Of a stretch of 11,689 nt of DNA, positions 1,665 to 11,689 are shown one piece after another (within the stretch, counting starts at the first letter, position 1; each line of letters opens with the position of its first letter). Origin of the DNA: Acidimicrobiia bacterium (lineage in GTDB: Bacteria; Actinomycetota; Acidimicrobiia; Acidimicrobiales; Ilumatobacteraceae); assembly GCA_030425785.1 (NCBI GenBank), contig JAUHYJ010000052.1:1-11689 (forward strand), given 5' to 3'. The notes under the pieces were generated by a model. It saw nothing but the letters and a program-made list of their open reading frames with translations. It made no database searches and had not been told where the DNA came from. Position numbers and translations under genes: made by a program.

Positions 1665-2690
1665 TCACCCCTCGGCCGCGGCCAGCTCGGCGGCGATCGA
1701 GATGATCTGGTCCTCCTGGCCGCCGACGAGCTGCTCCTCGCCGCAGCGCATCAGCACGTCGGCGCCTCGCACGCCGTACTGCTCGGCGGCGCGATAGGCG
1801 TGCTTCAGGAAGCTCGAGTACACGCCGGCGTACCCCATCACGAGGGCCAGCCGGTCGATCACGCACTCGCCGTCCATGACGGGGCGGACGACGTCCTCGG
1901 CGGCGTCGACCAGTGCGAGCACGTCGATGCCGGTCCGGATGCCGAGCCGGTCGCACACCGCCGCGAACACCTCGTTGCGGGTGTTGCCGGCACCGGCGCC
2001 GAACCCGCGTGTCGAGCCGTCGATCTGGGTGGCGCCCGCTCGCACCGCGAGCACCGAGTTGGCGACGGCGATGCCGAGGTTGTCGTGACCGTGGAAGCCG
2101 ACCATCGCGTCGTCACCGACCTCGGCGACGACGGCCTGCACCCGCTCGGTGACGTCGTCCATGATCATCGCGCCGGCCGAGTCGACGACGTAGGGGCACT
2201 GGCAGCCCGCGTCGACCATGATCCGGGCCTGCTCGGCCAGCTGCTCGGGGCTGACCGAGTGCGCCATCATCAGGAATCCGACGGTCTCGAAGCCGAGCTC
2301 GCGGGCGAGCCCGAAGTGCTGGACCGAGATGTCGGCTTCGGTGCTGTGCGTCGCCACTCGCACGATCGACACGCCGAGGTCGCGACAGGCACGCATGTCG
2401 TCCATGGTGCCGATGCCGGGGACCATGAGCGCTGCGATCTTCGCCAGCTCGGCGGTGTCGACCGCGGCGCGCATCAGGACGCGCTCGTCGGTGAGCGAGC
2501 GCCCGTAGTTGAACGACGAGCCGCCGAGCCCGTCGCCGTGCGTCACCTCGATGACCGGCATGCCGGCGGCGTCGAGTGCGCCGACGATGTCACGCACGTG
2601 CTGCTCGGTGAACTGGTGGCCCTTGGCGTGCGACCCGTCGCGCAGCGAGGTGTCGGTCAGTCGGATGTCGAGGTCGTTCGAGTACGGCAT
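1665..2690 (-). CDS. 4-hydroxy-2-oxovalerate aldolase (DmpG/MhpE/HsaF family)
   Basis: This class II, divalent-metal pyruvate aldolase cleaves 4-hydroxy-2-oxovalerate (or the oxohexanoate homologue) to pyruvate and acetaldehyde (or propanal). The 341 residues match the family length. [11 protein letters not shown] at 11-21 holds the conserved Arg17-Asp18 and His21 of the active site. GFHGHDN at 198-204 carries the metal-binding His200 and His202. The C-terminal third is the helical domain that contacts the partner dehydrogenase. The dehydrogenase gene lies immediately upstream, and in this family the two proteins form a complex that channels the aldehyde. The ATG at 2690 is one base after the dehydrogenase stop (TGACATG). 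A GTG at 2699, three codons upstream, would overlap the dehydrogenase gene and is also possible. The window cannot tell HsaF-like from DmpG-like substrate preference, so no symbol is assigned. Confidence 0.93.
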
Positions 2691-2691
2691 G

Positions 2692-3582
2692 TCACACACC
2701 CACTTTCTGGTCGAGGTGCTTGGCGATCTCGTTGCCGGCCTGGGTCGCGGCCGCCGTCATGATGTCGAGGTTCCCGGCGTAGGGCGGGAAGAAGTCGCCG
2801 GCGCCCTCGACCTCGACGAACACGGCGACCCGGTGGGTGCCGTCCGGCGTGACCGAGAACTGCGGCTCGACCCGCGGTCGGTAGCCGGGCACGTAGGTCT
2901 GGACGTAGGCGGTGACCTCGTCGATCGACCGGACGATCGCGTCGTGATCAGCATCTTCGGGGATCTCGCAGAAGATCGTGTCGCGCATGATCAGGGGCGG
3001 CTCGGCCGGGTTCAGCACGATGATCGCCTTCCCTCGCGGCGTCCCGCCGCACACCTCGATCGCCCGGCTGGTCGTTCGGGTGAACTCGTCGATGTTGGCC
3101 CGGGTGCCCGGCCCGGCCGACTTCGACGCGACGGTGGCGACGATCTCGGCGTACGGCACGTCGACGACCCGGCTGACGGCGTACACCATCGGGATCGTGG
3201 CCTGGCCGCCGCAGGTGACCATGTTGACGTTCATCTCGTCGAGGTGCTCGGTCAGGTTGACCGGCGGCACGACGTACGGCCCGATGGCGGCCGGCGTCAG
3301 ATCGATCGCGCGGATGCCGGCGTCGAGGTAGCGCGGCGAGTTGCCCTCGTGTACGTAGGCGCTGGTGGCCTCGAACACGAGGTCGGGCAGCTCGGGCCGG
3401 TCGAGCAGCCAGTCGACGCCCTCGTGGCTGGCCTCGACGCCGAGGTCGCGGGCCCGTGCCAGCCCCTCGGAGTTCGGGTCGACGCCGACCATGTAGATCG
3501 GTTCGATGTGCTCGGAGCGGAGCAGCTTGTACAACAGGTCGGTGCCGATGTTGCCCGACCCGACGATCGCAGCGGTGCGCAT
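2692..3582 (-). CDS. Acetaldehyde dehydrogenase (acylating) (DmpF/MhpF/HsaG family)
   Basis: The enzyme oxidises acetaldehyde (or propanal) with NAD+ and CoA to the acyl-CoA, taking the aldehyde from the adjacent aldolase. The 296-aa protein opens with the Rossmann motif [16 protein letters not shown] at 6-21. The nucleophilic cysteine is Cys124 in [29 protein letters not shown] and the [13 protein letters not shown] segment are typical of the family. The ATG at 3582 places the glycine motif at the expected distance from the N-terminus. The frame stays open upstream to 3813, but that extension is Arg-rich and antisense-like, so it was rejected. CACACT lies exactly six bases before the ATG as a possible -10, and two tandem 20-bp repeats lie just upstream (3601-3640). 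This makes it the first gene of the aldehyde/aldolase operon. The 2-oxopentenoate hydratase that usually accompanies the pair is not in the window. Confidence 0.94.
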
Positions 3583-3588
3583 GCCGTC

Positions 3589-3594
3589 AGTGTG
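3589..3594 (-). promoter_or_regulatory. Candidate -10 of a leaderless promoter for the dehydrogenase operon
   Basis: On the minus strand CACACT is followed by six bases (GACGGC) and then the ATG at 3582, which would place the transcription start at or next to the A of the start codon. No Shine-Dalgarno sequence precedes the ATG. It has only the A and final T of TAnnnT, so it is weaker than the other cases in this window. Confidence 0.4.
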
Positions 3595-3600
3595 GCCGCG

Positions 3601-3640
3601 CCGTCCCGTGGAGGGGAACGCCGTCCCGGATGCGGGAACG
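3601..3640. repeat. Two tandem 20-bp operator-like repeats upstream of the dehydrogenase operon
   Basis: Positions 3601-3620 and 3621-3640 are directly adjacent copies of the pattern ccgtcccg-N4/5-ggggaacg, identical at 15 of 20 positions, with the differences confined to the middle. Each unit is itself an imperfect inverted repeat (CGTCCC against GGGAACG, one base offset). They lie between the stop of the 82-aa gene and the dehydrogenase start, about where the -35 and upstream region would be for a -10 at 3589-3594. That position and the 20-bp period, near two helical turns, suggest two bound dimers of a regulator. A hairpin terminator is the alternative, but there is no U tract. Confidence 0.55.
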
Positions 3641-3659
3641 GCGCCCGTCACCGGTTCCG

Positions 3660-3908
3660 TCAGATCTGGGCGAGATCGATCGTGATGTGTTGTGTGACGT
3701 CGTGGATGCGGTGGCCGAGGTCGTCGTCGGTCGACGTGGTCGCCTTGCCGCTCATGTCGAGATCGACCTGGATCGATCGCCCGTCCTCGCTGACCTCGGC
3801 GACGACGAGGCATCTCGTCGTGTCGCGCTCGACCGCGCCGGCCACGGCGAGGACGGCGCAGGGCGCCTGGTGTGTCAGCGAGTTGCCGACGACGATGTGC
3901 TCGTCCAT
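3660..3908 (-). CDS. Hypothetical protein, 82 aa
   Basis: I do not recognise this protein. It runs from [16 protein letters not shown] to a C-terminus ending HITIDLAQI. It has two cysteines (17 and 33), no membrane segment and no signal peptide. Alternating hydrophobic stretches ([27 protein letters not shown]) suggest a small beta-rich domain. The ATG at 3908 is chosen because TACGGT, a TAnnnT hexamer, lies exactly six bases upstream. GGTGAG near the ATG could alternatively serve as a Shine-Dalgarno. It lies 38 bp after the esterase stop and 77 bp before the dehydrogenase start, all on the same strand. It is probably a real gene because it has its own start signals and fills the only gap between flanking genes. 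Confidence 0.65.
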
Positions 3909-8978: not shown

Positions 8979-8985
8979 CGCGGTG
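8963..8985 (+). terminator. Hairpin across the stop codon of the metallo-beta-lactamase-fold gene
   Basis: CCGCGCT (8965-8971), loop CGCGT, AGCGCGG (8977-8983) is a perfect 7-bp stem, extendable by a G-U and a C-G pair to nine. It contains the TAG stop (8976-8978). No U tract follows, so it would be a U-less terminator, or an mRNA 3'-end stabiliser, between this gene and pdxS. Confidence 0.45.
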
Positions 8986-9027
8986 CCGGGTGGCGATCCC
9001 ACCAGGGAATCACCGAGCCGGGAGCGA

Positions 9028-9033
9028 TACGCT
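9028..9033 (+). promoter_or_regulatory. Candidate -10 (TACGCT) for the pdxS operon
   Basis: TACGCT, then GGTGGC (6 nt), then the ATG at 9040. The same hexamer and spacing occur before the ACT-protein gene. GGTGG is too close to the ATG to act as a Shine-Dalgarno, which favours leaderless initiation. I see no clear -35. Confidence 0.55.
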
Positions 9034-9039
9034 GGTGGC

Positions 9040-9924
9040 ATGCCCGAACAGATCACCGGCTCGTTCCCCGTCAAGCGCGGCCTCGCCGAGATGCTCAAGG
9101 GCGGCGTCATCATGGACGTCGTCACGCCCGAGCAGGCCAAGATCGCCGAGGACGCCGGCGCCGTCGCCGTCATGGCGCTCGAGCGCGTGCCGGCCGACAT
9201 CCGCCGTGACGGCGGGGTCGCACGGATGAGCGACCCGGACATGATCGAGGGCATCAAGGCCGCGGTATCGATCCCGGTCATGGCCAAGGCCCGTATCGGT
9301 CACTTCGTCGAGGCCCAGATCCTCGAGGCGCTCGGTGTCGACTTCGTCGACGAGTCGGAGGTCCTCACCCCGGCCGACGAGACGCACCACATCGACAAGT
9401 TCAAGTTCACCGTGCCGTTCGTGTGCGGCGCCACGAACATCGGCGAGGCGATGCGCCGCATCAGTGAGGGCGCGGCGATGATCCGCTCGAAGGGCGAGGC
9501 CGGCACCGGCAACGTCGTCGAGGCGGTCCGCCACCTCCGCAACATCCTCGGCGACATCCGCAAGATCGGCCAGGCCGACTCGGCCGAGCTGTTCGAGTGG
9601 GCCAAGGCCAATCAGGCACCGCTGCCGCTCGTGCAGGAGATCGCCGAGACGGGCAAGCTCCCCGTGCCGCTGTTCTGCGCCGGCGGTCTGGCCACCCCGG
9701 CCGACGCCGCGCTCGCGATGCAGCTCGGTGCCGAGTCGGTGTTCGTCGGGTCGGGCATCTTCAAGTCCGACGAGCCGGCCCGCCGTGCCGCTGCCATCGT
9801 CGAGGCGACCACCCACTTCAACGATCCGCAGATCCTCGCCAAGGTCAGCCGCGGTCTCGGCGCACCGATGACCGGTATCGGGATGGACGAGATCAACGAG
9901 CGCTACGCCGAGCGGGGTTGGTGA
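9040..9924 (+). CDS. pdxS: Pyridoxal 5'-phosphate synthase, PdxS subunit
   Basis: PdxS makes pyridoxal 5'-phosphate from ribose 5-phosphate, glyceraldehyde 3-phosphate and ammonia, the ammonia coming from PdxT. The 294-aa TIM-barrel protein matches family length and is highly conserved. Asp26 (GVIMDVV), the catalytic lysines Lys83 (MAKARIGH) and Lys151 ([10 protein letters not shown]), and the [13 protein letters not shown] and [14 protein letters not shown] phosphate-binding segments are all present. The ATG at 9040 gives the family N-terminus ([18 protein letters not shown]) and has a TAnnnT hexamer six bases upstream. It is the first gene of an operon with pdxT, yebC, a micro-ORF and a peroxiredoxin, so PLP supply is co-expressed with a translation factor and a peroxide-removing enzyme. 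Confidence 0.98.
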
Positions 9925-9977
9925 CCCGTTGACCTCGGGCAGTCAGGAGCCCCCAGGTGCAGCCCGAGGGGTCGATG

Positions 9978-10595
9978 ATGATCGGCGTGCTCGCACTGCA
10001 AGGCGCGTTCGCATCGCACCAGCAGCGGCTCACTGAGCTCGGCGCGCTGACGCGCCAGGTGCGCACACCGCGCGACCTCGCCGGCGTCGACGCGCTCGTC
10101 ATGCCCGGCGGCGAGTCGACGACGATGTCACGGCTGCTGACCACCAGCGAGCTGTTCGACCCGCTGGGGGAACGGATCGCCGGGGGTATGCCGGTGTTCG
10201 GCACCTGCGCCGGCATGATCCTGCTCGCCACCGAGGTGCTCGAGGGGCGACCCGACCAACGCTCCTACGGGGCGATCGACATCACGGTGCAGCGCAACGG
10301 CTACGGCCGCCAGCTCGACTCGTTCGAGACCGATCTCGTCGTGCCCGAGCTCGGACCCGATGCCACACCGTTCCATGGCGTGTTCATCCGCGCGCCGCGG
10401 GTCACCCGCGTCGGCGAGGGTGTCGAGATCCTCGCCCACCACCATGGCGAGCCGGTGCTCTTGCGCCAGGGCACGGTGTCCGTGGCATCCTTTCACCCCG
10501 AGCTCGCGGGCGATCATCGCCTCCACGCCCTGTTCCTCAACAGCTTCAGCAACAGCATCACGTCCAGCATCACGACGCAATCGGAGAACCTCTGA
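9978..10595 (+). CDS. pdxT: Pyridoxal 5'-phosphate synthase, PdxT glutaminase subunit
   Basis: PdxT is a class I glutamine amidotransferase that hydrolyses glutamine and passes ammonia to PdxS; twelve of each form the known complex. From the ATG at 9978 the 205-aa protein begins MIGVLALQGAF, the family's first strand. PGGEST lies at 43-48, the nucleophile is Cys77 in FGTCAGM, and His173/Glu175 in SFHPEL complete the triad. The C-terminus ends in a Ser/Asn-rich tail (SFSNSITSSITTQSENL) beyond the usual end. ATG 9978 has GAGGGG six bases upstream. An adjacent ATG (9975) and a GTG (9957) preceded by AGGAG at good spacing are alternatives. The stop TGA shares its last base with the yebC ATG (TGATG), so the two are translationally coupled. 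Confidence 0.96.
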   Translation: MIGVLALQGAFASHQQRLTELGALTRQVRTPRDLAGVDALVMPGGESTTMSRLLTTSELFDPLGERIAGGMPVFGTCAGMILLATEVLEGRPDQRSYGAIDITVQRNGYGRQLDSFETDLVVPELGPDATPFHGVFIRAPRVTRVGEGVEILAHHHGEPVLLRQGTVSVASFHPELAGDHRLHALFLNSFSNSITSSITTQSENL

Positions 10596-11347
10596 TGTCC
10601 GGCCATTCCAAATGGGCAACCATCAAGCACAAGAAGGGCGCTGCCGACGCGAAGCGCGGCAAGCTCTTCGCCAAGCTGGCCCGCCAGATCGAGGTCGCGG
10701 CCCGCTCGGGTGGTGGCGACCCCGACATGAACCCGACGCTGCGCACCGCCGTCCAGAAGGCCAAGGCGGCGCAGATGACGAACGACGCCATCGACCGGGC
10801 GATCAAGCGGGCGACCGGTGAGGGCGGCGCCGACAACTACGAGGACATCATGTACGAGGGCTACGCCCCCGGCGGCGTGGCGCTGCTCATCAACGTGCTG
10901 ACCGACAACCGGAACCGCACCAGCGCCGACGTGCGCAACGTACTGACCAAGGGCGGCGGCTCGATGGCCGAGCCGGGCGCGGTCGGTTGGCAGTTCAGCC
11001 GGCGCGGCATCGTGCTCGTCGACGGCGCCGGCGTCGACGAGGACGAGCTCATGATGGCGGCGCTCGAGGCCGGCGCCGAGGACGTCGAGGCCGCCGGCGA
11101 TGCGTGGCAGGTCACGTCCGATCCGAGCGACGCGTTCGACGTGCGCGATGCGCTCGAGGGGGCCGGGTTCACGATCATCTCGGCCGACACGCCGATGGTC
11201 AGCGACAACCTCGTGCCCGTCACCTCGGTCGAGGAGGCGAAGAAGATCCTCCGCATCCTCGAGGCGATCGAGGACAATGACGACGTGCAGGACGTGTTCT
11301 CGAACTTCGACATCAGTGACGACATCATGGAGGCTGCTGCGGGATGA
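10595..11347 (+). CDS. yebC: YebC/TACO1-family translation-associated protein
   Basis: This 250-aa protein starts with the family signature [20 protein letters not shown]. It continues with [24 protein letters not shown], the [22 protein letters not shown] core and the [14 protein letters not shown] segment. YebC proteins were long annotated as transcriptional regulators; more recent work ties bacterial YebC and mitochondrial TACO1 to relief of ribosome stalling at proline stretches. It starts by TGATG overlap with pdxT and has GGAG eight bases upstream. Its last codons ([15 protein letters not shown]) are echoed in the next small ORF. In many bacteria yebC is followed by ruvC; here a micro-ORF and a peroxiredoxin come first. 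The acidic C-terminal tail beyond the conserved domain is unusually long and ends in EAAAG. Confidence 0.96.
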
Positions 11348-11415
11348 CGATCGAGAGCTCGAACTTCGACACCGTGACCATGACCGACGACATGATGGAA
11401 GCCGCGGCCGGATGA
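11300..11415 (+). repeat. Diverged duplication of the yebC 3' end
   Basis: Copy 1 (11300-11347) and copy 2 (11359-11415) both begin tcgaacttcgac and end ggatga. With one 9-base insertion in copy 2, I count about 40 identities over 48 aligned bases. In the final EAAAG codons every difference is synonymous. Both copies end in an ATGA stop/start junction. Confidence 0.75.
11344..11415 (+). CDS. 23-aa micro-ORF copying the YebC C-terminal tail
   Basis: The ORF encodes [23 protein letters not shown] in pieces: [23 protein letters not shown]. YebC ends [15 protein letters not shown], so the micro-ORF repeats that tail with a three-residue insertion. Its ATG overlaps the yebC stop (ATGA at 11344-11347), and its stop overlaps the peroxiredoxin ATG (ATGA at 11412-11415). 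It therefore links the two genes by translational coupling. GGAGG at 11329-11333, inside the yebC tail, is a plausible Shine-Dalgarno for it. The copy's own equivalent, GGAAG, is weaker. It could be a translated microprotein, a coupling spacer, or a decaying duplication. No function is assigned. Confidence 0.6.
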
Positions 11416-11689
11416 GCGTCGGTGTCGGTGACCAGGCACCCGACTTCACACTCCCCGGTACCGGTGGTCGCGAGTACTCGCTGAGCGAGTTCAGCGGCAG
11501 CCCGGTCGTGCTGGTGTTCTACCCGGGCGACGACACGCCGGTGTGCACCAAGCAGCTCAACGCGTACAACGACGACCTCGGCAAGTTCGAGGAGCTCGAC
11601 GCCCAGATCCTCGGGATCTCGGCCCAGAGCGTCGACAGCAAGGAGTCGTTCTCCGGCAAGCACGGTTTCGAGTTCCCGTTGCTGGCCGA
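11412..11689 (+). CDS. Peroxiredoxin, Bcp/AhpE-like (3'-truncated by window edge)
   Basis: The 92 visible codons form the N-terminal half of a thioredoxin-fold peroxidase that reduces hydroperoxides. The opening [14 protein letters not shown] and [18 protein letters not shown] are family hallmarks. The peroxidatic Cys is Cys45, with Thr42 and Pro43 before it (PxxxTxxC). Classical Bcp enzymes carry a resolving Cys five residues later; here residue 50 is Asn. It is therefore either a 1-Cys enzyme or uses a cysteine beyond the window edge. The ATG at 11412 overlaps the micro-ORF stop (ATGA), so translation is coupled to it. It belongs to the pdxS-pdxT-yebC operon, and the downstream end is not visible. 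Confidence 0.92.

Follow-up and report, generated by a model that had tools for sequence, protein, structure and literature searches.

A duplicated yebC tail forms a putative relay micro-ORF between yebC and a peroxiredoxin gene in an Acidimicrobiia bacterium

Introduction

Translational coupling of neighboring genes is reported to depend on overlap or very close spacing: with 38 nt between the genes, reinitiation fell by 80-90% in two E. coli pairs and was abolished in a third, and the final 15 nt of the upstream gene were sufficient for coupling (PMC10666635). Mycobacterial MIRUs are described as small co-directed open reading frames (ORFs) whose ends overlap the neighboring ORFs (PMC4473831), in units of 77 and 53 bp (PMC4213456), and a review from 2025 interprets them as insertions preserving the -4 coupling (PMC12548453). 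Translation of a short ORF can also raise downstream expression, as the same review says of ribosome-delivering uORFs (PMC12548453) and as is reported in cis for mg2 of axe-txe (PMC8708949); mgtQ, between mgtC and mgtB, is reported to promote translation of the next gene (PMC8092293). Many intergenic small ORFs in a survey of Enterobacteriaceae overlap or closely abut neighboring genes (PMC11188072).

Here, we describe a putative relay micro-ORF between yebC and a peroxiredoxin gene (prx), found in 11,689 nt of DNA from an Acidimicrobiia bacterium (the window, by which we mean this whole stretch). Like MIRUs (e.g., at senX3-regX3), the micro-ORF has the direction of both contiguous ORFs and overlaps both with its ends, and the window unit, like the 77- and 53-bp MIRU units, is 2 mod 3 in length. 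Unlike MIRUs, which are dispersed in mycobacterial genomes and appear mobile, the window element is a single copy, duplicated from the tail of yebC, and the relays of other genera at the yebC-prx joint are mostly unrelated in sequence. The window element would act like a MIRU without belonging to that class: it has the architecture and lacks the dispersed repeat.

Both window joints are classical 4-nt overlaps of the kind known from termination-reinitiation at ATGA/TGATG, and relatives have the direct state; the window differs in placing two couplings in series around a 23-codon ORF. The axe-txe leader minigenes lie in the txe frame and are thought to protect the mRNA, and mgtQ works with stem-loops and acidic codons, whereas the window has two exact 4-nt overlaps between two genes. 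In our best reading, the element is a relay that preserves coupling, known in kind and new in origin, and no title or abstract in the literature searched described a YebC-tail microprotein or relays born from tail duplication.

Results

The genes pdxS (8983-9924), pdxT (9957-10595), yebC (10595-11347), and prx (from 11412) run in the same direction on the plus strand. The yebC product (250 aa) was assigned to the TACO1/YebC family with Pfam PF01709 and PF20772 and NCBIfam NF001030, all above cut-off. The peroxiredoxin gene (11412-11689) lacks its 3' part and was identified by Pfam AhpC-TSA (above cut-off); with the 92 residues given, its best NCBIfam matches, PrxQ and thiol peroxidase, were both below cut-off. 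The retrieved locus stops at the last base of the window (11689), so the contig seems to end inside prx, 274 bases past the micro-ORF. The source genome is 83% complete in 857 contigs, and the duplication is known from one of them. Elsewhere in the window (1665-3813, minus strand), genes for 4-hydroxy-2-oxovalerate aldolase (1665-2699) and acetylating acetaldehyde dehydrogenase (2692-3813) overlap by 8 nt.

A micro-ORF chain search placed a putative relay of 23 codons at 11344-11415 (plus strand). Its start shares an ATGA with the yebC stop (11344-11347), and its stop shares a second with the prx start (11412-11415), as a preliminary description of this DNA, made from its letters, had stated. 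Both joints are co-directional -4 overlaps, a feature of translationally coupled pairs. A GGAGG (11329-11333), 10 nt 5' of the micro-ORF start, may serve as a Shine-Dalgarno-like site. The fold of 11290-11470 was no better than that of shuffled sequences (z, 1.02). MIRUs are described as lacking dyad symmetry; no inverted repeat was found inside 11344-11415, and one weak pair (16 nt, 75%) reaches from 11374 into prx at 11432.

The micro-ORF holds a diverged copy of the yebC 3' end. In a direct-repeat search and local alignment, the last 48 nt of yebC (11300-11347) matched 11359-11415 with 40/48 identities and one 9-nt gap, in agreement with the copy of about 40 identities and a 9-base insertion reported before. 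The alignment score (54.5) exceeded those of all 2,000 codon-shuffled copies (maximum, 52.0). Ungapped direct repeats likewise recovered the likeness; the duplication was absent from the list returned by Tandem Repeats Finder. An upstream match, CGATCGAG, occurs in the same frame (IE) at 11265 and 11348, which suggests that the duplicated unit spanned 11265-11347 (83 bp) and afterwards lost 24 and gained 9 nt. Under this model 51/59 aligned positions are identical, with gaps as placed by the aligner. Alternatively, the unit may have been about 59 bp long, with a linker of 11 unrelated nt; both lengths are 2 mod 3. The element is a real tandem duplication, private so far to one genome.

Tail and copy differ at 8/45 compared bases. 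Over the same bases, the yebC tail of G001, a genome of the same genus, differs from the window tail at 7 and from the copy at 9, and that of G004 at 8 and 7, respectively, so on the scale of these species the duplication is not a recent one. These figures would also suit recombination with the yebC-prx joint of a relative, in which the second tail and prx would have come from a donor and left two tails in a row: the tail-copy distance resembles that of either from the G001 and G004 tails (7-9), and the copy ends in GCG GCC GGA TGA as G001 and G004 do, while the window tail ends in GCT GCG GGA TGA. We hold this origin to be highly improbable. Tail and copy have a TCG in common where G001, G004, G006, and G009 have TCC, although TCG is also used in other genera and so speaks just weakly for an origin within the lineage. 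A DNA search of 397 genomes of the order found no donor with the 9 extra nucleotides, and the outcome for coupling would be identical.

The relatives sampled lack the copy. All eight same-genus genomes with a readable joint (G001-G004 and G006-G009; no yebC was found in G005) have a direct 4-nt yebC-prx overlap, ATGA in six and GTGA in two, so the copy was inserted at a pre-existing overlap; the tail copy was found in none of these eight. When 155 joints were scanned for a second copy of the tail, the top score was the window's (46.0), followed by 33.0. A DNA search with the 72-nt ORF in the 397 genomes of the order returned no comparable match: 69 genomes (the window's own included) had matches at an E value of 0.01 or better, and among the matches listed all but the window's own were partial. 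Of 29 matched loci checked, one (L272) lay at a yebC joint and was an ordinary yebC tail with prx directly after it. With a 281-base query, the best other match in the window's own genome (about 83% complete) was 25 bases at 92%, and matches within the genus were either short or the yebC-prx locus itself. Neither a mobile element nor a wider repeat family is supported, since the copy is single in its genome and genus. In G008, yebC is split over contigs C134 (residues 1-236) and C110 (residues 197-249) with overlapping coverage, probably through assembly breakage or strain mixture.

This distribution bears on a functional microprotein that would mimic the C-terminal tail of YebC or compete with it; mimicry and peptide-level selection had been proposed before. 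SNFD and DDxMEAAAG are kept between tail and copy, and the earlier claim that changes in EAAAG are synonymous stands for all four changed codons there. It does not extend to the 15 codons compared, where 3 of 7 changed codons in this single sequence are non-synonymous (I to M, S to T, and I to M). Given also the copy's absence from the eight same-genus joints and the lack of any near score in the 155-joint scan, selection on the peptide is not supported. A microprotein has no orthologue at those eight joints nor by DNA in the 397 genomes of the order. Mimicry is further weakened because the copy is private among the genomes sampled and the relays of other genera encode other peptides, with no evident shared sequence. 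In Streptococcus pyogenes, a C-terminal 3xFLAG on YebC is reported as harmless to function, so that the C-terminal end tolerates change there (PMC12234827). We consider a functional peptide very improbable. Absence from close relatives had been named beforehand as evidence against the proposal, and it counts against a role of the peptide; a copy out of coupling register, named likewise, was not what we found.

A neutral, decaying tandem duplication, also raised in the preliminary description, would explain the window by itself. The copy would be in-register debris by chance, with prx initiating on its own. It is private to one genome among those sampled, three of its seven changed codons are non-synonymous, neutral copies with 6-15 random substitutions stayed open in 75-88% of simulations, and the frame fits about 1 time in 3, so the window alone is unremarkable. 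However, none of the scanned Shine-Dalgarno-like tetramers lies 3-14 nt before prx in the window and no TANNNT lies near it, and the same outcome recurs at the yebC-prx joint in seven genera, against 2/14 at a control joint (below). Overall we regard chance debris as unlikely.

The recurrence was found among 240 loci including the window, of which 2 run off their contig and 44 are duplicates, leaving 194 distinct joints. The loci sample part of 199 family genomes with a match (the best 30 as loci plus 100 further stretches); further locus sets of 30 and 80 partly overlap that sample. The prx overlap was 4 nt at 88 joints and 1 nt at 22; micro-ORF chains of 5-23 codons bridged 12, and 29 were gapped without a chain. 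The remainder had no prx downstream (32), had prx beyond 300 nt (6), or were too short (5).

Where yebC stops in ATGA or GTGA and prx follows within 300 nt (97 joints), there were 84 direct overlaps, 12 chains, and 1 frameshift case. The last, L257, has a direct ATGA overlap after which the prx frame shifts by one base, and it was dropped from the gapped set; every other gapped joint with an ATGA or GTGA stop is bridged. By stop, the 29 gapped joints without a chain divide into CTGA (20), TTGA (1, L093), frameshifted ATGA (1), and TAA/TAG (7). These joints without a relay, 20 of them with CTGA, indicate that coupling at the yebC-prx joint is dispensable in some species. At two loci with a CTGA yebC stop, L191 (G114) and L190 (G120), the gap to prx carries tandem repeats that include the yebC end (in L191 a 24-nt unit in several copies). 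These gaps allow no relay, the length of the unit is 0 mod 3, and the two loci contrast naturally with the window.

Every chain has exact 4- or 1-nt overlaps. Besides the 23 codons of the window, the chains are MSMTA then MRITA (L035/L154), MIRRDSREVAR (L172), MIWLLDVSS and MIWRLDVSS (L183 and L184), MTATPWIRVAS (L037/L188), VSAGS (L024), and 9-12 codons each in five loci of genus g10 (L061, L237, L251, L255, and L265). The chains are mostly unrelated in sequence, and between genera the peptides look unrelated. The 12 chain joints fall in seven genera, i.e., six besides that of the window, and were grouped into seven events by genus label and sequence rather than by tree. Counting each genus once, the chances multiplied to about 10^-3.7 for random gap letters and length (null A) and about 10^-2.8 for 0-2 random deletions in the real gap (null B), in a test that was defined after the first cases had been seen and is not blind. 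Genera g10 (the same five loci) and g22 (L037) have TACGGT or TAGGGT in the gap, 6 nt 5' of prx. This looks like a leaderless promoter (TANNNT-N6-ATG); prx in these two genera may have its own transcript and may not need coupling.

The pdxT-yebC joint served as a control (110 loci, L001-L110). It is usually without overlap (9 direct overlaps), and 2/14 gapped NTGA joints were bridged. Grouped counts were 7/7 versus 2/6 in the control (Fisher p, 0.021), with control rows grouped by ourselves and four rows with a 3-nt gap dropped. Ungrouped counts were 12/12 versus 2/10 (p, 0.00014), with related rows counted and the same four rows dropped. At one control locus, L068, an insertion of 74 nt with the direct repeat GACCCGATGAGT on either side yields an in-register relay of 25 codons and looks like an inserted element with target duplication.

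Genome-scale counts were made on 2.0 Mb of G001, G009, and G021 with a home-made gene caller whose gene starts were uncurated. A relay ended on the called start in 19/80 gapped pairs with an ATGA or GTGA stop, versus 48/439 pairs with other stops (Fisher p, 0.0026; enrichment, about 2.2-fold) and 4/80 and 7/80 in two control frames. By genome, the relays numbered 11/47 (G001), 2/11 (G009), and 6/22 (G021), and G009 alone shows little. In the coupled frame, pairs with other stops were slightly enriched as well (48 versus 33 and 36; p, 0.049), and TTGA pairs were not enriched (4/22 versus 5 in one control frame). Given the uncurated starts and the slight excess at other stops, the effect is moderate.

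Within the genus, where few relatives were alignable, we compared four relays of G001. One is an in-register insertion of 41 nt (2 mod 3) at a joint that is a direct ATGA in G004. In two others, substitutions in G004 have left length and register intact, and for one of these two the ATGA of the joint is lost in the window's own genome. Among orthologous neighbors in G001 compared with G009 and G021 (27 and 11 adjacent pairs), nine pairs have a 4-nt overlap in one genome only. An in-register relay was the alternative state in 0/9 of them; one, in G021, has a gap of 107 after a GTGA stop, to an uncurated called start. The first 15 nt of the 41-nt relay (G001 52873-53190; L301:12873-13190) match the start of the downstream gene at 12/15 positions, which suggests another tandem duplication at a coupled joint.

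Discussion

We favor, as reasonably probable, the explanation that a coupled joint tolerated a tandem duplication because the result was a relay that keeps prx coupled to yebC, with the peptide incidental. In the ancestor, the yebC stop and prx start would have overlapped in NTGA, and ribosomes ending yebC could have reinitiated on prx. Tandem duplication of the yebC 3' end at the joint would then have pushed prx 68 nt downstream. As the length of the duplicate is 2 mod 3, the old ATGA would have become the start of the copy, read in the yebC frame, while the copied ATGA still served prx, and the relay ORF so left would explain why the duplication was tolerated. An untranslated stretch of 64 nt between the genes would be expected to break the coupling of prx, unlike a 23-codon relay with ATGA joints at both ends.

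Ribosomes terminating on yebC would reinitiate on the micro-ORF, terminate at its end, and reinitiate on prx, and the output of prx would depend on the micro-ORF. Changes that broke the register would have uncoupled prx and been removed, a selection acting on length, and the 23-residue peptide would be a by-product. A translation relay to prx was among the roles first suggested for the micro-ORF, and the six other genera, the control joint, and the moderate genome-scale enrichment lend it independent support.

The pattern across relatives at the yebC-prx joint is more interesting than the window's single case. Tentatively, and with less than even confidence, we extend it to coupled stop-start joints at large, citing relays in 19/80 gapped ATGA/GTGA pairs against about 1 in 9 control pairs. 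Such joints may be protected in register, so that insertions and duplications survive mainly as in-register relay ORFs; Acidimicrobiia genomes would then harbor an overlooked class of relay micro-ORFs for which the peptide sequence is irrelevant and of which MIRUs are one mobile special case.

If the relays are real, some unannotated intergenic micro-ORFs would be devices for handing over ribosomes and not microproteins. Insertion length modulo 3 at joints would then offer an inexpensive way to see, genome-wide, where coupling matters, which is usually settled one reporter at a time. For those who hunt microproteins, the warning is that a micro-ORF found open and in register may owe its persistence to the act of translation alone.
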